DNA from: an uncultured Mycoplasmataceae bacterium | GTDB lineage: Bacteria; Bacillota_I; Bacilli_A; Mycoplasmatales; Hepatoplasmataceae | DNA: 41,079 bases | Assembly (NCBI GenBank): GCA_947330515.1 | Contig: CAMZOE010000043.1 | Span: 1-41,079 of the forward strand | Direction of reading: 5' to 3' | Shown here: positions 20,186-38,370 of the stretch, in pieces | Numbering within the stretch: the first letter of the stretch is position 1 | Layout of the letters: each line of letters opens with the position of its first letter | Notes under the pieces: generated by a model | What the model saw: only the letters and a program-made list of their open reading frames with translations | Told to the model about the DNA's origin: nothing | Databases searched by the model: none | Made by a program: the position numbers and the translations under genes

Positions 20186-22066
20186 TTATCTTCTAGGTTT
20201 TTTTGGTGCTGAAGGTAATTTTTGTGATTGAGGTGGTCTACCTTGAGGTGGTCTACCTTGAGCAGGTCTACCTTGAGTTGGTCTACCTTGAGGTGGTCTT
20301 CCTTGAGGTGGTCTACCTTGAGGTGGTCTACCTTGAGGTGGTCTTCCTTGAGGTGGTCTTCCTTGAGGTGGTCTTCCTTGAGGGGCAGGTGCAGCTGGTC
20401 TTGGAGCAGGTGCAGCTGGTCTTGGAGCAGGTGCAGCTGGTCTTGGAGCAGGTGCAGCTGGTCTTGGAGCAGGTGCTGGTGCAGCAGCTGGTCTTGGAGC
20501 AGGTTTTGATGCTGCAGGAGCAGGTGCAGTTGAATTATTTCTTTTTCATGAAAGGATTGAATCTCTCATACGTTTTTTATCTGCATCTTTATTAGAAGAA
20601 GCTTCTCTAATGATTTTTTCAATTTCATCATCTGATAAAGTTTCAGAATTTTCAATAGTAACTTTTTTAACATTACCAGTTTTTTTGTCTAATGCTGATA
20701 CATCAAGAATACCATTGACATCGATTGAGAATGAAACTTCAATTTGAGGAATTCCTGCAGGTGCTTTATCAATACCGCTTAATAATAAGTTTCCTAAGAA
20801 TTTATTATCTTCTACCATATATCTTTCACCTTGGAAAACTTTAACTTCAACTTTAGATTGATTTGCAACTACTGTTGAAAAAATACGTTTTGATGTTGTA
20901 GGAATTGAAGAGTTTCTAGGAATTAATACAGTCATAACTCCCCCTCTTGTTTCAACACCTAATGAAAGAGGAGTAACATCTAATAATAAAATATCTGTAA
21001 CTTCTCCTGTAAGAACTGAAGCTTGAATTGCAGCTCCCATTGCTACTACTTCATCAGGATTAACTGTTGAATTAGGTTTTTTATTTAATCTTGTTTCAAT
21101 TAAAGTTCTAATGTAAGGAATTCTTGTAGTTCCACCAACTAAAATAATTTCATCGATATCTTGAATTGATACTCCCGAATCATTAATTGCTTGTTCAATA
21201 GGTTCTATTGTTTTATCAATAGCAGGTCCAACTAGTTCTTCAAATTGTGTTCTTGAAAATTTAGTTTCAATATGTAATGGACCAGCATCACTTGAAGCGA
21301 TGAATGGTAATGAAATAGTTGTTTCTAACACTGAAGAAAGATTTTTTTTCGCTTTTTCAGCTTCTTCTTTCATTCTTTGTAATGCCATTTTATCTGTAAT
21401 TAGATCAATACCATATTCTTGTTTAAATCCATCAACTAAGAAATCAACGATAATGTTGTCAAGATCGTCTCCTCCTAATTTATTATCTCCTGCAGTTGCA
21501 AGAACTTCAAAAGTACCATTAGAAATTTCTAAAACTGAAACGTCAAATGTTCCTCCACCGAAGTCATAAACTAAAATTGTTTCTTCTTTATCTAATTTTT
21601 CGATTCCATAAGCTAATGCAGCAGCAGTTGGTTCATTGATAATTCTTTGAACATTAAGACCAGCAATTTTACCAGAATTTTTTGTTGCATTACGTTGTGA
21701 ATCATCGAAATAAGCAGGAACTGTAATAATTGCTTCTGAAATTGGTTCACCAAGTTTTTTTTCTGCATATTCTTTTAAATGTGCAAGAATCATTCCAGAA
21801 ATTTGTTCAGGTTTATATTTTTTTCCCCCAATTTCAAATTCGTGATTTGTTCCCATAAATCTTTTAACAGAAACTATTGTATCAGGATTTGTAAGTGCTT
21901 GTCTTTTAGCAGCATCACCAACAATAATTTCTCCATCTTTAAAGGCAACTACAGAAGGTGTAGTTCTATTACCTTCGGGATTTTCTAGGATTTTTGCTTT
22001 ACCGTTTTCGTAAACTGAAACAACAGAATTAGTTGTTCCCAAGTCAATACCTATAACTTTACCCAT
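20186..22066 (-). CDS. dnaK: Hsp70 chaperone DnaK with a repetitive Pro-rich C-terminal tail in place of most of the lid
   Basis: DnaK binds unfolded peptides under ATP control with DnaJ and GrpE. The 626-residue product starts at 22066 (AAGGAG site; [14 protein letters not shown]). The ATPase domain is normal, with [13 protein letters not shown] and [12 protein letters not shown], and the substrate-binding beta domain ends near residue 473 (KVTIEN). The helical lid normally continues for about 130 residues. Here only about 33 are left (474-506). After a UGA Trp at 507, a 120-residue low-complexity tail begins: five PAPRPAA-type units, then ten PQGRP pentapeptides (with single T and A variants), ending in a basic KKPRR-like tip. 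The tail is encoded by near-perfect 21-base and 15-base tandem repeats. No CIRCE element is seen upstream. Confidence 0.95.
20230..20380 (-). repeat. 15-base tandem repeat array encoding PQGRP in dnaK
   Basis: Ten consecutive units of the form CCT-CAA-GGA/T-AGA-CCA on the minus strand, with synonymous GGA/GGT changes and two units with a first-codon substitution (Thr, Ala). All are in the dnaK frame, so copy-number changes would keep the frame. Confidence 0.92.
20381..20515 (-). repeat. 21-base tandem repeat array encoding PAPRPAA in dnaK
   Basis: Four near-identical 21-base units plus one variant unit encode Ala/Pro/Arg heptapeptides (APAPRPA) in the dnaK frame. The array is markedly more GC-rich than the surrounding genome. 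Confidence 0.88.
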
Positions 22067-22379
22067 AAATTCTCCTTCCATTAAACATAATATGTTTAAT
22101 TTTTTTATAAAACTATTAGAAAATAAAAAATGTATTAAAAGCAAAATAATCAATATTTTGTTTCCAAAAAATAATGTATAAAATGTGTATAAAAAAAATA
22201 CTTTTTTTACTTATAAAATATATTCACACAAAACTATACTATAAAATTAGAAGCCTTTTAATATCCTAAATCTAACATTTTAATTATATCAAATTATTAT
22301 TACTTTAAATTTTTTTAATGATAAATATGCTATTTTATAATGAAATTTACAATTCTAATAATCTTCATTATTTACAATT
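22067..22379. other. Intergenic region upstream of dnaK
   Basis: About 310 AT-rich bases between the start of dnaK and the end of the beta-helix gene. It holds the palindrome at 22081-22099 and one of the two 25-base tandem copies at 22346-22395. I found no CIRCE (TTAGCACTC-N9-GAGTGCTAA) and could not choose a promoter with confidence. Confidence 0.5.
22081..22099. promoter_or_regulatory. Palindrome TTAAACAT-AAT-ATGTTTAA in the dnaK leader
   Basis: A perfect 8-base inverted repeat with a three-base spacer lies two bases upstream of the dnaK ribosome-binding site. It could be a repressor operator or an RNA hairpin near the ribosome site. It does not match CIRCE. Confidence 0.5.
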
Positions 22380-22395
22380 CTAATAATCTTCATTA
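22346..22395. repeat. Perfect 25-base tandem duplication at the 3-prime end of the beta-helix gene
   Basis: The 25-base unit at 22346-22370 is repeated exactly at 22371-22395. One copy contains the last codons and TAG stop of the minus-strand gene; the other lies just downstream of that stop. Confidence 0.9.
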
Positions 22396-25300
22396 TCATT
22401 TTGTTTAGAAATTAAATTTTGTTTAGAAATAATTGATTTTAAAAATTTATATTTTCCGTTAATAATTGTTTCATTTATCATTGTTTCTTCAAGTTTAACT
22501 ATTCCTTTAATTTTAGAGTTATTTATTTTAGAAAAAGAAATATTAATATTGCCATCAACTGAAGAAAAAAAGATATTAGAATTTTTAACTAAAACTTCCT
22601 TGTTAAGTAAAGAATTTTTGATAACGCTATATTCTAAAAAAGCACTATCATTTAATAAAGAATCTGTTACCGTAGAACAAAAAACTCTTGCTCGATCATG
22701 AAGTTCTGATGAAGATACATTAGAATTAATAATTTTAACTTCATTTAAAAGACGACAATCACTAATATTAGAATCACTAATTAAAACACTATCGCTTAGG
22801 AAAGATTTCTCAATAAATGCATTTTTAACTTTAGAAGAATTTTCAATTTCAGAAGCATAGATAATGCTTGATTGAACAAAAGAATTATCCGAAATAACAC
22901 ATTTTTCTATCTTTGCATTAGTTAAATATGTATTATTTTGAATTTTGGATTGTAAAATTTCTGAAGATATAATTTTAGAAAGACCATTTATTATTGAATT
23001 TCCACTGATTTTAGAATTATTGATTGTGCAACTATTTTCAATAACAACACGATCATAAATTCAAGTATTACCCATAATTAAATTAGAACCAATAATTTTA
23101 GCTTTTGCTGAAATAACTGAAATATCTTGAATAAAAGTATGACCATTAATATATGATTTTCCTAAGATTCTTGATGAACCAGAAACTCTAACATTATTTC
23201 TTAAGATTGCTTGTTGAGAAATTTTAGCATTATCTGAAACAATTACAGAATCAAAAATTTTTGCAGAATCAAAAATTTTTGCATTTCCATAAACTACTGC
23301 TTTATCATAAATTCAACTTTTTCCATTTTTTGATAAATTTTCTAGTGTTTCAACATAACCACCAAAATCATTTTTCTTAACATCATCAAATGATTGATTA
23401 GCTTGAATTTGATAAACAGTGATTGTTTTATCTAATTTTTCATCATAAATAACTTTTCTTCGATTAGTTAATTTAAATTTAGGATTAGATTTTTGATAAT
23501 TTTGAATTTCAATATTTTCAACAATAACCTTATATTGTGGAAATTTTTTCAATGTTTTAATTCATTGTTTACCAAACTCATTATTTTCAAAAACAATAAT
23601 TTCATTATTTTTAGGTAAATTTAAAAGAAAATCTCCAAAAATTTTTGTACTTCCTTTAGTAATTAAATTTGCTTTAATAATGATATTACCAAAAAATCTA
23701 CTATCATTGAAAATATAAGCATCTCCTAAAATTTTAGCATTTTCAAAAATCATTGATTTTCCATAAATAAAAATTTTTGATGAAGGTGAACCAACAATAG
23801 CATTATCAAAAATTTTAACATGATGATGAATGTTAATTGTTCCTCTTAAAACTGCATTATTTTTAATAATAACATTATTACTAATTGTTATTTTTCCGTC
23901 AAGAGAAGCATTATCTAAGATAGAAACAGATCCTTGAATAGTAACATTTCCGCTTAAAGTAGCATTCCCCATAATTTGCATTTTTTTACTTGAATTATTT
24001 TCTAAATAACATTTTTCTAGGATTCTAGCATTCTCATAAATATAAACATTTCCTTTTATTGCTCCTACTGAAATAGCAACTTTTGTATTTCCAAAAATTT
24101 TAACAAAATAATTTTTTTGACCATCAATTATTGTTTTTTTATAAATCATTGCATTGTCAGTAACAAATGATCGATTAACTAAAGCATTATCTTTAATAAT
24201 TGCTAATTTTTCAACTTTTGTAGTTTTAACAATTGCTTTTCCAGAAATAATAGCATTATCTTTTATTAGTGATTTTTCACTAATAATTGCTTCTTCTACA
24301 ACTCTAGAGTTATCAATTGCAGATGAACCTTTCTCAATTCAAGAATTATTTAATTGAGAAAGGTTAAAAAGTGATGAAACATATCCACCAATCTCGTTAG
24401 AAGAATAATTTTTAATATCTCTCAATAATCTTATTGGAAAAATAAATTCGTTTTTATATTTTACTTTTTCATCTCATAATACTTCATATTTAAGAGAATT
24501 AGTAATTGATAACTCTTGAAGTTTTTGGAAATTTATTTCTTTAAAAAAAGAATTTGCTGAATAGAAATTAAAAGTTATATTATTATTTTTAGTAATAATT
24601 TTACTTAAATTTTGAACAAGAATATTTTTGTTTTTATAATCAATAATATAAAAATTTATAGTTTTTAAAAAAGGATTTTTAACAATTCTTTGAATTATTG
24701 AAATATCAATAAATGTAGTATCCAAAATATCAATATTATTTAAATCAGGAAAATACTCAATCAAATCAATATTATTTTCATATTTAAAAGAAAAATCTTT
24801 TGTTTTATTAAGTCCAGAAGTAAAATCATTTAAATCATCATTCAAGAATGACCCTTGTACATGTGTTAAATTTGTTCATTCTAACAAATTAACTTCTGCA
24901 AGTGAATAAACGGAATCATATTCTTTAATTTTAGAACTAATAATGTTTTTTAAGTATAAATTTTTATCATAACTTAAATAAACTTCTAAAATGTCTGTAA
25001 AAGAAAAATTTCCTTCTTCTAAAGCTTCTTCATTAAAAGTAAAACGATTTTTAGCACTAACACTAATACCATTTCTATTTCTCATAAATGCATCTATAGG
25101 ATCTTTTAAAATATTAAAACGATTAAAAAGGAAGAAAGATTTACGATAGCTTTCTTCTAATCATTCATAAAAAATATCATCTAAAATCAAATCAAATTTT
25201 TCAAGAATATAATCCTTTGAAATATCATTCAAGTGAACTTTATTAATATTTTTGCTAATAATATTTTCATTTAAAAAATATGTTAAAAAAATAACTATTT

Positions 25301-25682
25301 TTTCTTTTATTTTTAAAAAAACTTTATACAGTGGTTTACTTTTGTTGTCTTTTAATAAGGATTCAATATCCAAACCATCAAAAAGATCTTTTTGATCAAA
25401 TTTAAATCCTTGAAAATAAACTTTAACAACGGAAGACTTATTAATTTCATCAATAAAAAATACAAAAAAATCAGTCATATCAAATTCTAATACATTAATA
25501 GAAACTGTTTTATTATAATTGAAAATTGGTTTTTGAGTTTTTTTTCCAAAATTCTCAAAAATAAAATTTTCTTTTTGATATAAAAAATCTTTATCTTTTC
25601 TTAGTGGTAATACTAGTTCAAAATATTGATAAATGAAGGAATATATATCCCTTCCAAACAACATAACATTTTTATAATTCAT
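22380..25682 (-). CDS. 1100-residue protein with two beta-helix-like repeat modules
   Basis: I do not know a name for this protein. All parts lie in one frame once UGA is Trp. Residues 1 to about 420 are non-repetitive, rich in Phe, Asn and Lys, with no signal peptide. At about 430 and again at about 780 a cap motif GGYV...NLS...SWI appears. Each is followed by some 300 residues of short Ile/Val/Ala/Asn-rich units such as IYENARI, IFDNAIV, VYGNAKI and ISDNSFV. These give the spacing of a parallel beta-helix, as in YdcK-like or hexapeptide-type proteins. The end has a small repeat (ISKQN twice). A TATAAT box (25690-25695) sits seven bases before the ATG, suggesting a leaderless mRNA. Role: perhaps structural or binding. 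Confidence 0.8.
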
Positions 25683-25695: not shown

Positions 25696-25722
25696 TCCTT
25701 AAAAGAGATATTAAAAAACAAA

Positions 25723-26011: not shown

Positions 26012-26085
26012 TGGCGGGTGTTAAAGGAATCGAACCCTTACAACTGGTTTTGGAGACCATTGTTCTGCCACTAAACTAAACACCC
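26012..26085 (-). tRNA. trnW: tRNA-Trp (anticodon CCA)
   Basis: A 74-base cloverleaf on the minus strand. The acceptor arm GGGTGTT pairs with AACACCC, followed by discriminator G and an encoded CCA. The D arm is GTTTAGTGGCAGAAC, the anticodon loop is CTCCAAA giving anticodon CCA, and the T arm is AAGGG-TTCGATT-CCTTT. The first anticodon-stem pair looks like an A-G mismatch. It reads UGG. The UGA codons used throughout the window need a separate tRNA-Trp with anticodon UCA, which is not in the window. Confidence 0.95.
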
Positions 26086-26571: not shown

Positions 26572-27984
26572 ATGGAAAAATTTTTAATTATTTTATTAGA
26601 AAGTATAGTTTTATTATTGATAATAATAATAATAATTTTATTTATAATAAGAATGTTTTTAAAAAAGAAAAAAATTAACTTAAATGTTGACTCAATAAAT
26701 ACTACTAGTGAAATGACTTTAGTAAAAAAACATTATTTCAAAAGATGATCTAGCATCTCTTTAAATACATGAGCAATTCCACTTTCAAGTGATTTTGAGT
26801 TTCAAAAGATTAATATTATCGAAAGTAAAGAAGTTCACGGTCACGTTTTGATTGTTGGTGGGAGCGGAAGCGGAAAAACACAAAAAATTATTTTACCGTT
26901 TATTTTAATGAATGCTCAAGCAAAAGAAAAACCATCATTCATTATCAACGATGTAAAAGGAGAAATTTTCCAAGAAACTAATAATTATTTAAGAAGAAAT
27001 GAATATAATCTAATTCAATTAACATTTGAATTAGATAAAAAAAATTTGAATTATTTTAATCCATTATTAACTATTTATAATGCAAAAGACAAGCCATTAA
27101 TTTTAGTAAATAAAATGCACTTAATTGCAGATTTTATTTTCGATGATGAAGATGTTAAAGATCCTTTTTGAAATGCAAAAGCAAAAGATGTTTTTTTTGG
27201 TTTAATTTATTTTCTTTTAGAAAAAGAAGTAAGAAGTGAGGAATTTACATTTAAAAAAATAATGACTATTTTTGATAATCTTAATTTAATTAAAGATGAA
27301 ATTATTGATAGAAAAGAAAAAAGTTATTTCTTTTTAAAAGAATTTTTAATAAAAAAAGAATCATCTAAAACAATAGAAAGTATTTTTGTTACTTTCAGAG
27401 GAAAACTCTCCCCTTACTGTGATGGTGTAGTAAATATTATCAATCAAAAAAACAATTTTGAAATTAATGATTTAATTAATGAACCAACTGCACTATTTAT
27501 TAAGAATCCCATTCATGATGAAAGTATTAAAAATTTTATTAGTTTGGTAATCTATCAACTTAACACAGAACTTATTAATAATGAGAAAATAACCCTTTCT
27601 AGGCCAATAATTAATCTTCTTGATGAATTTGGTTCATTTGTTAAAATTAAAAATTTTGAAGAATGACTTTCAATTAGTAGACAAAAAAATATTTGATATT
27701 TAATTGCAATTCAAAATATTGCTTTATTTGAAAATAAATATGGAAATATTTCAAAATACTCTTCTAATTTTCTATATGAATATTTTGTTGGTGGTGGAGA
27801 TAGAAAAAGTTATGAATATTTTGTTAAAGATTATAATGACATTAAAAAAGAAAATAAAGCTTTAATAAGTTTTAATTATTTTCATACTTTGTCACAAGAT
27901 GAAATAATCTTAAAACAAAAAAAAGAATTGCCAAAAATAAAAAAGTTTGATAATATTTGAAAAATTAATGATACTTACTTATAA
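26572..27984 (+). CDS. VirD4/TraG-type coupling ATPase
   Basis: Type IV coupling proteins link a relaxase-DNA complex to the secretion channel and pump DNA with ATP. The 470-residue product begins after an AAAGGA site. It has one N-terminal membrane segment (about residues 5-30), then Walker A GGSGSGKT at 96-103, and a TraG-like stretch with FIINDVKGEIFQ (usually DPKGE) and NYFNPL, then FWNAKAKDVFFGLIYFL. Walker B is INLLDEFGSF with D351. UGA Trp codons occur before the Walker A and around 370-390. It is shorter than conjugative TraG proteins of mycoplasma ICEs. It lies 18 bases before the helicase gene, likely in one operon, and near a relaxase gene, which supports a mobilization role. A HerA-like defence ATPase is a less likely alternative. 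Confidence 0.82.
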
Positions 27985-28002
27985 TTTAAACAAGGTGAAA
28001 AA

Positions 28003-31000
28003 ATGAATTTACAAGAAAAAAATAAAAGAAAATACAACTCAATAGTAAAAAAAATGGACTTTGATAAAGAAATAAAAGAAAAAATTTTATTTTATTATCC
28101 AAAAAATATAGAAGAATTACTTCAAATCAAAGGAATTGATGAAGAATGAATGAATAAAAATAAAAATTTTATTAAATTTTTAGATACTTTGATTCTTTTA
28201 GAAGAAGAAAAAATTAATCCAAAAACAAACACAGTATTGAATAATTTTTCACAAAAATTATCAATGATTTCACAAAAAAGTAAAATGATTTGAACAAGTA
28301 AAGTTAATATTGCTAATAATATTGATTTAAGTATTCTAGAAACGAAAGTAATAAAATCCATCGATGAAATCATAAAAAATCCTAAAGATGATAAAAAAGC
28401 TGTTGAAATTAAAATTAAAAGAAGCCAAATATCTCTCGTAGGAAACAGTGATTTCAAAAAACAAATTGAGAAATATGAAAAATTTCTTGAAGATGATGAT
28501 GAATATAAAAAAATGAAAAATGAAAAAATCATCTTTAAAAGAGTAAATTATGATTATTTTAGCAAAATAATTAATAAAAATAATGAAATCAAAAAAGAAA
28601 AAGGACAAAACTTACTTTATATTGCTAAATATTATCTCGAAGGTAATTACTTTGCAAATGATAAAGATTTTGCTTTAAGAGCTCCTATTTTTCTTTTTCC
28701 AGTAGAATTAAAGCGCAATGAAAGAATTAGTGAAATAAAAATTAAAAATGATCCTTCGAGGGACATTATTGTTAATCCTTTTATTTTACAAAATATTTTA
28801 AAAAAGAAAACATATATATATAACTATAAAAAAACAATCGAAGAAAATGTAAAATTATTATTCGAAGGAATTAAATATGATGTTTCAAATACAAGATTAA
28901 CTTATTTTGAAACACTCTCTATTAAAGAGGTTATTTCTAATTTAGGATATCGTATAAAAAATCATTTAATATTAGGAATCTTTAATCAATTCGATAGTTC
29001 TATTCAAGAAGAAATAAATGAAATTAGAAAAAGTAAAATGGTTGGAAGAAACATCATAGAAACATTTTCTGAATATGATATTTATGAACGCGAAGCTATT
29101 AATAAAATAAACAATGAAATTGAAACAAAAATTAATGATGATGAAGATATTTATTATATTGATAAACTAAATTATCAACAGGTGTTAGCATTAAAGAAAA
29201 TTAATCACAATGATTTAAATCATTTAACAATTTGAGGACCTCCAGGGACGGGAAAAAGTCAAACTATATTATCAATCATTATTGATGCCTTAATTAAGAA
29301 TAAAAAAGTAGCAGTAGTTACTGAAAAGAAAGTTGCTCTTGATGTTATCTATGAACGTTTAGGTGAATTAAAAGACTTTGCTTTACTTATTACAGATTTA
29401 AATTCTAAAAATGAATTTTATGACCAAATAAAATCATCTTTTGAAGCAATAGAAAAATTTAGCACTAATCCAAAACCAATCAAAAATATCGATTATACTA
29501 AACGCTTAAAAAATAATTTAGATAATCTAGATAAAATTGATTTCAAAGAAAATATGGAAGAACTTAATAATAAAACATTTTTAGAAGTTTTCTCAGAAAT
29601 TCAACCACATTTACTTAATAACAAAAAATTACAATTTTTTGTTAAATATAAAATTGATTTAATTAAATTTAATAAAAATATTTCATATCAAGATGCAGTT
29701 GATATCTTTATGTTAATTGAAAATAATTTTTCTATCAATGGACTTGTTAATTTTTATAACTTTAATAAAAAATACATCGATTTTGAAAATTACGATAATA
29801 TTGTTAATAAAATTACAGAAACATTAAATAATCTAATTGATGCTCAAAAAATCAATGAAGAAAAGAAAAATAATTTAGAAATACTAAATAAATTAGTTTT
29901 CGAATATAAAACAATCAGTAAATGATCATGAATTAAAAAGTGAAAATTTAGAAAAGTTATTTATAAACAAACCTTTTTAAAAACAAAAGATGAAATTCAA
30001 AAATTTAATCAAGAACAAGAATTGTTACTATTAATAAATCAGAACGAAAATCTTATTAAAGAAGTATCTATTTATGAAAATGAATTAAAAAATATCCAAG
30101 AAAAAGAATGACAAATTAATAAATTTAAAAATTTAAATTCAGTTCAAATTGAATGAATCCAAAAAATAATTGAATATTCTCGTAAAACTGAGCTTGATGA
30201 AGATAAAAGTAGATTACTAAATAAGGTTTTATTTAACTTTATTATTGAAGAACAAGTAATCAATAATACTCTATTTAAGGTATTAGAAAATAAGATTAAT
30301 AATTGAAAAACACAAATCTTAAATATTGATGAAATTCAAGATAAATTAACAATGTTTAACAAAAATCTTGTTGTTCAAAAAGTTGTAGAACAATTTAAAA
30401 ATGATTTAGAATTTAATAGTCGTTCCAAAACTATTGAAAAAATTGTTAATTCGAAAAATAAAAATGCCATTATTGATTTTTTCCAAAAATATGGACTTGA
30501 AATTAAAAAAAGTTTTCCAATTTGGTTAATGCGTCCTGATGTTCTTGCAAATTTATTTACTCCATTAGAAAAATTCGACATTATTTTAGTTGATGAAGCT
30601 AGTCAATTATTTGTTGAACAAGCTTTACCTGCATTACAACATTCAAGAAAAATAGTTGTTCTAGGTGATGAAAAACAACTCTCACCTTCAAGTTTCTTTC
30701 AAACAAAATTTGAAAACGAAGATGAACAAATTGAATATATCGAAAATGATGATAGTTTATTAGATTTTGCGAAAACAAAATTTCCTAGTGTAATGTTAAA
30801 AAATCATTATCGTTCTAACTATAGTGATTTAATTGAATTCTCTAATATTAAATTTTACGATGGTAACTTAATTGTTACTGATAATAATTCCAATAAAACA
30901 AAAAGTTCTATAAGTTTTATTAAAGTTAAAAATGGAATTTTTACAAACGCAACTAATATTGAAGAAGCAAAAACAATTATTGAAACTATTACTAAAATTT

Positions 31001-31800
31001 CACAAAATAGCACTACTAAAAATATGTCTTTAGGAATCATTACAATGAATAATTCACAAAAAGAATTGCTTGAAACAATGATTACTCAAAGCAGCAAAAA
31101 AGACCCAGTGTTAAATAAATATGTTAAAAAATCTAATCTTTTTGTTAAAAGTATTGAAAATGTTCAAGGAGATGAAAGGGATATCATAGTTCTTTCTACA
31201 ACATATGGTTACGATGTAAATGGTAATCTAAATGTAAGATTTGGACCAATTAATAATCAAGGTGGAGAAAACAGAATTAACGTTGCAATAACACGTTCTA
31301 AAGAGAAAATGTATGTTGTTAGTTCATTTGATCCTTATGAATTAACCGCAAAAGTTCAAAAAGCTAAAAATAATGGACCAAGAATACTTGCTGATTTCTT
31401 AGTTTATTCTATGGATCCAAAACAATGATTAGAAGTTAATAAAACTAAATCAAAAATTGAAGTTGAAAGTGATTCATATATGATAAATCTTTTTGAAACA
31501 CTTGAAAAAACAATTAAAAGAAAATTTGGTTTTGATTTAATTAGAGATACAACCAATTCAAATTTTGGAATGGATTTTATTGTTTATGATCCTAAAAGAA
31601 AAAGAAATATTTTAGGTCTTGAAACAGATTTACGTTCCTTTGATGAATCTAAATTCGCAAGAGATAGAGATATTAGTAAAATGCAATATCTAACTTCAAG
31701 AGGGTGAAAAGTTCATAGAATTTGAACATTAAATTGAATTAAAAATGAAAAAAAAGAAATTGCTGCAATCATGAAAGAAATTTCTTTACTAAGTGAATAA
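28003..31800 (+). CDS. SF1 helicase with C-terminal Vsr/MTES_1575-like nuclease domain
   Basis: The 1265-residue protein starts after an AAGGTG site. Residues 1-400 resemble the N-terminal region of DUF4011-type helicases. Walker A GPPGTGKS is at 412-419; a long, partly coiled insertion runs from about 500 to 780. Walker B VDEAS has D864, motif III GDEKQLSP starts near 888, and NHYRSN, VQGDERDIIVLS and NVAITRSKE complete the UPF1/DNA2-like SF1 set. The last about 100 residues look like a Vsr-type endonuclease fold: GMDFIV (D1191), LGLETDL (E1207, D1209), RDRD, and GWKVHRIWTLNW. This domain order matches helicase-nuclease proteins described as phage defence candidates (DUF4011-helicase-Vsr). 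Many UGA Trp codons break it under the standard code. It follows the coupling protein gene by 18 bases. Confidence 0.85.
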
Positions 31801-31827
31801 ATAGATTAAATTTTATTTTAAAAATAA

Positions 31828-31871
31828 ACTAAAAAGCACTACTAAAAATAAACTTAGTGGTGCTTTTTAGT
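31828..31871 (+). terminator. Terminator after the helicase gene
   Basis: A long stem (31828-31844 with 31855-31871, ACTAAAAAGCACTACTA / TAGTGGTGCTTTTTAGT, one G-T pair) ends the coupling ATPase-helicase transcript before the relaxase promoter. Confidence 0.88.
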
Positions 31872-31905
31872 TTTTATTAAAAAATTAATAAACTTTATTT
31901 TTATA

Positions 31906-31911
31906 TATATT
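31906..31911 (+). promoter_or_regulatory. -10 box six bases before the relaxase start
   Basis: TATATT is followed by six bases and the ATG at 31918, with no ribosome site, fitting a leaderless transcript. Confidence 0.4.
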
Positions 31912-31917
31912 AATTAT

Positions 31918-33255
31918 ATGAATAAAAATAAACTTAGTATGAAAATTAATTATACAAAAAATTTAAAAACATTGACACATTCTGCAAGAAGACAAAAAAT
32001 ATATCAATTTGATTTAGAAAAGTTAAACTATGAAGGTTACAATGTAATCGAAAAAAATTTAAAATACAATGAATTTTTTAACGGAAATGAATGAGAAAAA
32101 CTATCAGAAAAAGATTTTTATCAAATAGTTAAAAAAAATATTCAAGAAAAATTTTTAGAATCTTCCTTAGAATTTAAAGTTAATCAAAACAAACCCTACC
32201 TTAGCCAAATTATTATTAGTTTTACTCCTAGTTTTTTTGAGCAAGCAAACATTCTAGATTACAATGAAATTTCCAAAGAAGACAATTGCTACAAATGAGG
32301 AATAAAAGAACTATATGATGAAAAACAATTAAAAGATATTTTTAGAAGCGTTAACAAAGCATTGGAAAAACAATTATCTCAAGCATTAAACTATGATAAT
32401 TTTGTTGGAAGTTTTTTACATTTAGATGAAAAAACTCCACACTTACACTTCTTTTTTACTTTAATTGATCAAAATTTAGAAAACAAAATAAGTAAAAAAA
32501 ATATTCCAAAATATCTATCAATAAGAGAAAACATTATTACAAAGGTTAATAAAATTTTAAATAAAGATAATCAAATTGATAAAGATATTCCAAAAGAAAA
32601 TCAAAGAAATTGAAAAAAAGAATTAGAACTAAACCTTAAAGAATTAACGATAATAAGAGAAAAAATGGAAAAAGAAAAATATTTCTCTCTTGAAGAAATA
32701 GTAAAAGGTGGTTTTTCAGAAAATAAAATTATAGAAAAAGAAATTAAATATCTTTTTTTAGAAAATGTTAATAAAATTTTATTAGAAAATAAACATTTAA
32801 TTAAAACCAAAACTTTTTTTATGGACTTTGAAAAAATTTTTTCTCTTTACGAATATTCTTCTCTAAAAATAAGAAAAGAGAAGGTAAATTGATACATTAA
32901 AACAAAGGAAAATATATATGGTATAGAAAATGATCTTTATTATAAAATATTAGATAAAACATATAATAAAGAAATTAAAAAAGAACCTATTAGTCTAGAA
33001 TTAACAAGAAAATTAGATGGAGTAAAATATGAAATCAAAAAAGAACTATCTGAAATATTAGATGAAGTTAGTTTTTTCATAAAATCAAGAGACATTAATA
33101 TCTTAAAACAACAATTAGAAAAAACATTACTAATGAACAGAGATATAAAGGAAAATTTTAATTTTATTTATAAAGAAATTAATTTGGAATTAAATCGAGA
33201 AAGATCAAGAAAATATGAAAAAAAATTAGAAGAAACAAAAGAAAGAGAAATTTAA
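31918..33255 (+). CDS. mobV: MOBV-family relaxase (Pre/Mob-like plasmid mobilization protein)
   Basis: MOBV relaxases nick plasmid or element DNA at oriT and stay attached to the 5-prime end. The 445-residue product has the family hallmark HLDEKTPHLH at residues 168-177, the H-x-D-E-x-T-P-H-x-H metal-binding motif of Pre/Mob proteins. The N-terminus (KINYTKNLKTLTHSARRQ) resembles the first motif region, with a conserved Arg rather than an obvious catalytic Tyr. After about residue 230 the protein is a Lys/Glu-rich, helical region with coiled-coil character. UGA Trp codons occur in both halves. It is transcribed alone between two terminators. With the coupling ATPase at 26572 it argues for a mobilizable element. 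I could not place its oriT. Confidence 0.82.
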
Positions 33256-36273: not shown

Positions 36274-38370
36274 TTAATAAGTATCTTCATAATCAATGAT
36301 TTCACTATCATTTATTGATGATTGATTATTTTCATTATTATATTGTTCATTATTTTCAAGATATTCACCTTCATAAATGTCAACATTTATTGAATTTGGA
36401 TCTTCATCACTTTCATTATAATCGTAACTTTCATTATAATCATTGTTAAATTGATCATCAAAATTATCATCATTACTTTCACTTGTTGGTAAAGGAACTG
36501 GTTGATTTTGAACATAACGATAATTATCTGAACCATATAATCTTTCTGTTTCTTTTTTATCTCTATAAACTTTAATAAATCAAAGAATTAAAAGTGTAAT
36601 GATTATTATTATTATTATTAAAAAAATAATTGATACAATTCCAAGAGTGGTATTAATAAAAGTCACATAAGTTGCAGAAGTATAAGATTTACTTTCAATA
36701 ATATTTTTAATCGCATCGTTATCTAACGATATTTCAATATTTTTAAGTTCATTACTTTTATTTGATAAATTTATTTCAGTATTAAAAGTAACATCATCTT
36801 TATAAAGTTTTTTTAACTCTAATCCTTTAAAATCAAATGTAGCTTTATAAACATTATTTGCACCATTTCATTCTAATTTATCTTTTTCACTTTTAAATTT
36901 TTTATCACCAACTTGAAAAAAAGAATTATTAAGATTTGGATGTATTCCGCCAAGAAAATAATTATCAGAAAAAATAATACTAAAATTAATAGATAATTTA
37001 CCTAATTTTTTCTTAGTTCTTGTTAATTCAATCCCTGATGTTTCAAAAGATAATTTATTTGAAACAACAATTTTTCTTAATATTTTTGCTTCGTTTTTTT
37101 CATTATTAGAAAAAATATTGTCTAAACTATTAAAATCTAAAAAATATTTTTGGATTCCAATACTATCATTTAAATTAATACGAAGAAAATTATCATCTTC
37201 AGTATATGTAATTAGTGCTTCAAAAGGTAATTTTTCTTTTTCAATATCACTAATACCTTTAAATAATTTTTGAGATTTAATTTCTGTAACTGTTTTTGAG
37301 TAATCAATAACACGAATATCATTAAAAGCACTAGAATCAACAGCTAAACTAATATTTTTTCCATCATTATTTGATGAAATAATATAAACATCATTTTTAG
37401 AAGTTTCTGAAATTTGATTATTATTAAATAAAATAAAATTATGAATTCCTGAGTTAGAAAAAATTGTTGAATTTCCAGTGGTACTTAAAAAAGAAAAATC
37501 TGTTGAAAAATTATTTTGTGCCACTAATACACTTGACATAGAGAAAAAAATATTTTCACTATTACTATCATAATTATTAATTATTGATGAAGATTTTATA
37601 TTATTACCATTAATATCGTTATCAATAAAAGAAAAACCTTTAACATTAATAAAATTAGGTTCTATATTATTTTTTCTAGTATTATAAGCAGAAGAACCGC
37701 TAATATTTATACTACCAATTAATATTCCTATCGTATCATTAGATTCAAAAACATTATTTTCAATAACATTAGTTTTTACTGTAGTTTTTGAAAATAATGA
37801 AAGATTATCACCTTCACCAGGAGTAGTTCAAGTAAGATCAAAATTATTAATAAATATACCTTTAACATCTGTAGAAATATCATTATTTTGTAAATTCATA
37901 TTTTTAATTACAACATTATCAAAAACATTTAAATTTTTTTCTTTTGTTGAATTATCAAAAGTATATTTATTAATAAAAAATTCTACATTATCAAAAACAA
38001 CTCCTTCAAAATAAACATCTGTTGCATCATTAATAAAGAAATCATTTTGAGTTATTTGGTTGTCTTGTGCTAAATTATAATTTTTTATACTATAACCATT
38101 ACCCACAATAACTTTATTTTGTGTTGAAATTCCACTACCTTTTTCATTTGATAAATCAATATCACTACCTAAATTAATTTTTTTTGTATTTTCATTAATA
38201 AGTTCTTTTTTAAATTCTTCTACATTATTAACTGTAACTCCATCATTTTTATCATTTTTTATTAAAATTCCATCTTTACTATTTTTTACAAACGGTGTTA
38301 CACCAATTAAAAAAACACTTGAAGTTATTAATAAAAATGAAAAAAAATTAAATTTTTTTACATTTTTCAT
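36274..38370 (-). CDS. Large surface-anchored protein with acidic cytoplasmic tail
   Basis: The 698-residue product begins with an N-terminal signal or anchor (residues 8-25, FFSFLLITSSVFLIGVTPF). It ends with a second membrane segment (about 570-598, with a run of Ile) followed by a 100-residue tail rich in Asp, Glu, Asn and Tyr (repeats of NDYNESYDYNESDEDP type). The part between, about 540 residues, would be outside the cell. It is Asn/Ser/Ile-rich, and its first half has short units like IDNDINGNNI, VIENNVFESN and VVIKNMNLQNN, typical of right-handed beta-helices. No lipobox is present. An adhesin or surface receptor with an intracellular tail is plausible; no specific family is recognised. 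Confidence 0.7.

Follow-up and report, generated by a model that had tools for sequence, protein, structure and literature searches.

The source of the window, the whole 41,079-nucleotide stretch analysed here, is a draft genome (832,759 bases, 85 contigs, completeness about 84%) in which TGA is read as tryptophan. Its minus strand carries an open reading frame of 1,100 codons (22380-25682), with dnaK (20186-22066, minus) downstream and a tRNA-Trp gene (26012-26085, minus) upstream, all three on the same strand. The encoded protein comprises a long N-terminal head and two modules, each made of a cap and a repetitive solenoid. The features of the locus are as follows.

22380-25682, minus strand: the complete gene under genetic code 4, encoding 1,100 aa from the ATG at 25682 to a TAG stop at 22380-22382
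25696-25700, minus strand: candidate Shine-Dalgarno AAGGA, read from the sequence, 13 nt 5' of the ATG and weak because of this long spacing
24507-25682, minus strand: orphan N-terminal part (head), residues 1-392, with no family or PDB match and no relative found
24336-24497, minus strand: cap 1, residues 396-449, GGYVSSLFNLSQLNNSWI
23613-24335, minus strand: solenoid 1, residues 450-690, built chiefly of hexapeptides that three short insertions interrupt; PF00132 (Hexapep) matches at 579-614
23478-23612, minus strand: linker, residues 691-735, without repeat, closing solenoid 1 (sequence reading)
23310-23477, minus strand: cap 2, residues 736-791, the nearer to the YdcK/phrog_5070 consensus
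22989-23309, minus strand: solenoid 2a, residues 792-898, hexapeptides (18-residue coils); lag 18 z 4.0
22413-22988, minus strand: solenoid 2b, residues 899-1090, 12 successive 16-residue coils (6+5+5), 11 of them strict

A first-pass annotation had described a giant two-module protein of 1,100 residues between dnaK and tRNA-Trp; its size and position hold for a single minus-strand frame under table 4, a strand and code that it had left unstated. At the local base composition, the probability that 1,100 codons stay open by chance is about 1e-40, and the longest open run in the other five frames of the interval is 157 codons. A gene on the forward strand or under table 11 was considered and rejected, as neither offers any long frame. 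The gene is fully adapted to code 4, with seven in-frame TGA and no TGG as tryptophan codons. Together, these observations confirm it as a real minus-strand gene under code 4, and it is single-copy in the source genome. Sequence inspection revealed no evident signal peptide, in line with the first-pass annotation, nor any lipobox or membrane segment (highest 19-residue hydropathy 1.3).

The surroundings have features of their own. An exact 25-bp tandem duplication (22345-22394) overlaps the stop codon of the gene. The source genome holds three dnaK genes, the one in the window and two on another contig (17003-18514 and 34092-35588; L212 and L213 on C15 of G000), whereas each of the 13 relatives that gave a match has one. 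The copy in the window is isolated, and Pro/Ala/Arg and (Q)GRPP tandem repeats in 15-nt units appear to take the place of its C-terminal lid; one of the C15 copies is accompanied by a GrpE-like gene of its own and carries a long charged tail. We saw no tRNA close to dnaK in the relatives' genomes. Insertion at the end of tRNA-Trp was rejected, since no repeat of the tRNA end that would mark an element around the gene was found. Beyond the tRNA (26572-33255, plus), mobilisation genes for a coupling protein (TraG-like) and a relaxase (Mob_Pre-like) lie on either side of the gene for a DUF4011/helicase/MTES_1575 nuclease of 1,265 residues, which matches two candidate defence families of PADLOC, PDC-S37 (E 5.5e-138) and Hhe (1.6e-79). 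Further on (36274-38370, minus) lies the gene of a likely surface protein of 698 residues: its N-terminus is signal-like, it has weak matches to a pectate-lyase-like adhesive domain and to MpPF26, and it ends in a membrane segment.

The two caps share the pattern GGYVx4NLSx4SWI with identical spacing, reading GGYV-SSLF-NLS-QLNN-SWI in cap 1 (residues 432-449) and GGYV-ETLE-NLS-KNGK-SWI in cap 2 (residues 774-791), exactly as annotated. The two modules are homologous (25% identity, E 3e-14). Repeats follow each cap far above chance, over roughly 240 and 290 residues in place of the 300 or so first ascribed to each. In module 1, the aliphatic autocorrelation reaches z = 6.6 at lag 6. At the end of module 2 it stands at lag 16 (z = 6.3), a value reached in 0 of 2,000 shuffles. 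The coils of solenoid 2b run gapless from residue 899, numbering 11 by a strict and 12 by a relaxed definition; in all 11 strict coils, Ile, Leu or Val occupies positions 6, 11 and 16, and Ser, Ala, Cys or Thr occupies positions 9 and 14. A run of even three such coils is absent from all 342 relatives. A pentapeptide repeat protein was rejected, there being no Pfam pentapeptide match and z 0.6 at lag 20 against z 6.3 at lag 16. The solenoids carry a net positive charge (+15, +7 and +1). Because they have no long loop insertions, only short ones, and only five histidines, all in repeat positions, they present no obvious active site.

Profile comparisons place the modules near YdcK. They match the NCBIfam model NF040481 (YdcK) with E 2.1e-43 and 148.5 bits, under its curated cut-off of 350 bits, and close relatives likewise fall below it (137-189 bits); both caps align with the YdcK cap ahead of the solenoid. 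Against the PHROGs, the matches are phrog_5070 (E 1.7e-76) and phrog_7964 (E 9e-72), and the crystal chain of Salmonella YdcK, 2F9C, is matched with E 2.5e-12. This chain has been grouped with trimeric LpxA-like proteins, which form the left-handed beta-helix group (PMC4372379, PMC4671585). Hexapep PF00132 scores 31.0 bits, above the Pfam gathering score of 27, and the six-residue periodicity is also present; matches to LbH_EIF2B and GMPPB_C lie under their Pfam cut-offs. Solenoid 2b has its best matches among left-handed helix families (Hexapep_GlmU, E 2.8e-4; LbH_GLGC, E 0.0029). By homology, the modules are thus predicted to be left-handed (hexapeptide) beta-helices, which bears out the beta-helix first proposed and specifies its type. 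A solenoid is present, and no family spanning the full 1,100 residues was found. The function had been called unknown: the literature searched indeed assigns none to any YdcK protein, and the modules belong to a recognised superfamily that the first-pass annotation had not named.

Structure prediction bears on the same point. An AlphaFold2 (AF2) model of module 2 from 18 sequences has a mean pLDDT of 51.7. Its first coils reach about 70-85 and place a two-residue strand at six-residue intervals, the pattern that a hexapeptide helix would give; the 16-residue array lies mostly at 50 or below, the alignment being unreliable there. Foldseek searches with this model and with that of the head (mean pLDDT 36.7) returned no significant match. 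As the AF2 models are weak and the fold searches gave nothing significant, the assignment of left-handedness rests on homology.

The head was annotated as a unique domain of 420 residues; it is shorter, about 392-395 residues, and it matched nothing in any search. Pfam, the PHROGs, NCBIfam and PDB sequences gave no match, and the 317 genomes of the order gave one noise-level match (E 0.006), weak and containing three TGA. Searches of the species genomes and viral contigs, made with seeds that detect close relatives only, so that distant ones may exist, returned no relative, nor did phages. Autocorrelation of residues 1-392 revealed no repeats, and the head has no similarity to the linker between the modules. 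In the AF2 model, built from the single sequence, residues 310-400 reach pLDDT values of about 50-67 in places, with strands and helices alternating. By eye, residues 290-400 or so might resemble degenerate leucine-rich repeats, which we offer as a guess; the weak fold-search matches of the head, to leucine-rich repeat proteins as well as TIM barrels, carry little weight at so low a pLDDT (37). So far, this large unmatched head is unique.

The modules themselves have many relatives, in 419 viral stretches, 144 genome stretches (mostly Bartonella), 64 phage records and 21 plasmid records, so the short cap-plus-repeat proteins are common, as had been stated. Two caps per chain occur in 4 of 168 viral frames and 6 of 174 genome frames, in phages and Bartonella. 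Of the duplicated fusion with a large head, judged unusual at first sight, the head is so far unmatched, and the duplication is uncommon, not unique (10 of 342 relatives). The longest of the 342 has 530 residues. Several relatives stand in tandem on each of two plasmids, one from Streptococcus salivarius and one from Bartonella. In Bartonella species (L120-L197), YdcK-like genes have expanded greatly, both chromosomally and on plasmids and frequently as tandem copies, and there the module is also fused to transmembrane coiled coils. In another genome of the class, a fusion (L012, 1468-3387) joins a cap and solenoid of the YdcK type to domains of the ArdC N-terminal and zincin metallopeptidase families. 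Given the two-cap proteins, the ArdC-like fusion and the transmembrane and coiled-coil fusions of Bartonella, the relatives behave as separate modules.

Within the lineage, the module is rare: it was found in 3 of 392 genomes of the phylum and in none of the nine other genomes of the family, and the order contributes one plausible further genome (L024) once four apparent low-complexity PHROG 5070 matches are dropped. Relatives abound on phages and plasmids, and this patchy distribution suggests horizontal gain of the module. All seven tryptophan codons are TGA, so any such gain would be old, or the donor another code-4 organism. Where their roles are known, the genes beside phage relatives act mostly in replication, recombination, antirepression or methylation (methyltransferase). 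A tail fibre or tailspike was rejected, since phage relatives mostly adjoin replication and regulator genes rather than tail genes; this neighbourhood favours intracellular work over a tail role.

On these grounds we propose, tentatively and at a little short of an even chance, that the protein is a cytoplasmic, non-enzymatic rod in which an unrecognised head is joined to two capped YdcK-type left-handed beta-helices that serve as a binding or scaffold surface. With the YdcK family assigned no function in the literature searched, this mechanism rests on shape. With a rise of 4.8 angstroms per coil, rods of some 14 and 18 coils would measure roughly 65 and 85 angstroms. The cap hairpin (GGYV..NLS..SWI) would close the open N-terminal end of its own helix, and a rod capped in this way would remain a discrete unit that does not stack end to end. 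The flat faces, rich in Ser, Asn and Lys, could then act as a binding or oligomerisation surface, with the N-terminal domain supplying the specific activity or the binding partner. Probably, the lineage acquired the YdcK module long ago from a mobile-element or phage pool; duplication would have followed, with the second copy lengthened as coils were duplicated.

Other readings draw on parts of the same evidence. A counter-defence or DNA-metabolism accessory retained from a mobile element, which we consider unlikely yet worth weighing, would fit the phage relatives that adjoin primosomal, Erf-like annealing, RuvC-like, antirepressor and DNA methyltransferase genes, the one relative fused to ArdC, and the relaxase, TraG-like coupling protein and candidate defence nuclease that lie beyond the tRNA in the window. 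Yet the protein has no PADLOC match, its solenoids are net positive, unlike DNA mimics, no tRNA-end repeat marks an element around the gene, and the gene lies apart from the mobilisation genes, on the opposite strand. Bactofilins polymerise through exposed helix ends. A polymer-forming cytoskeletal protein of this kind is improbable here, because both helices carry a folded cap; PF04519 matches weakly at two places (23.3 to 25.6 bits, under its cut-off of 27.9), and relatives bear the database label 'polymer-forming cytoskeletal protein'.

Scores also decide against membership among the hexapeptide acyltransferases, as they do for the bactofilins. A hexapeptide enzyme like LpxA or LpxD, the annotation that many relatives carry (phage relatives are labelled 'putative acyltransferase'), would share the fold superfamily, and the NCBIfam models of LpxD, LpxA, NeuD and GlmU match weakly. 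All of these matches fall far under their curated cut-offs (LpxD 33 of 242 bits), however, the solenoids lack long inserted loops and have few histidines, all in repeat positions, and the YdcK cap is absent from such enzymes; we regard this reading as a shade less probable still than a bactofilin. We give least weight to a surface adhesin or host-interaction protein. Long beta-solenoids are frequent in adhesins, and a secreted-type solenoid protein is encoded nearby (36274-38370), but signal peptide, lipobox and membrane segment are not evident, and the relatives are YdcK-type and, in phages, sit beside early rather than tail genes.

The cytoplasmic rod that we favour could be taken further: head and rods, one of them with a 12-coil array of 16-residue units, might constitute a previously undescribed bacterial cytoplasmic scaffold or effector with a head of new fold, a proposition we hold to be doubtful. 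YdcK-type proteins are abundant on phages, on plasmids and in Bartonella, yet the literature searched gives them no function. That a mollicute with a reduced genome retains a duplicated 3.3-kb version argues for useful cellular work by the module, and the fused head offers a handle on its binding partner. The perfect 6+5+5 array also offers those who study coil geometry or design beta-helices a clean test case from nature.

Comparison with known systems shows how far the protein departs from its relatives. Members of the YdcK family (NF040481; PDB 2F9C/2PIG; Pfam B_solenoid_ydck PF18836) likewise have a cap (K-Y-E-L-T ... GG[YW][IV]..NLS..W[IV]) followed by a hexapeptide solenoid; the present protein differs in having two modules rather than one, an extra 392-residue head and the 16-residue coil array. 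The phage proteins of PHROG 5070 and 7964, of unknown function, share the cap and first coils (E <1e-71), whereas the viral relatives sampled have mostly 130-340 residues (maximum 530) and mostly one cap, with no such head. The two-cap YdcK-like proteins of Bartonella and phages (L168, L149, L136, L102) match it in caps per chain, but they span 252-530 residues with no such head and no 16-residue array, and their caps lie 133-266 residues apart, compared with 342 here. Bactofilins (PF04519) also form a triangular beta-solenoid and match weakly, below the family cut-off, whereas the helices here are capped.

The geometry of the 16-residue coil is itself already known, since two coils in the left-handed helix domain of an ADP-glucose pyrophosphorylase (9xuk, PF25247; 9xuk_B 347-385) show the same 6+5+5 (or 5+5+6) register. 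The match of 9xuk_B to solenoid 2b is not significant (E 0.39), and the likeness is one of register, not descent. The family matches to this domain and to the corresponding eIF2B domain (PF25084) are weak and under their Pfam cut-offs. In contrast to both, the present protein has no nucleotidyltransferase domain and has 11-12 such coils where they have about two. The module is common, and its duplication is rare yet known. What sets this protein apart so far is its size, together with its orphan head and its array of 16-residue coils; it is an unusually large form of a common type of protein and not a new type.
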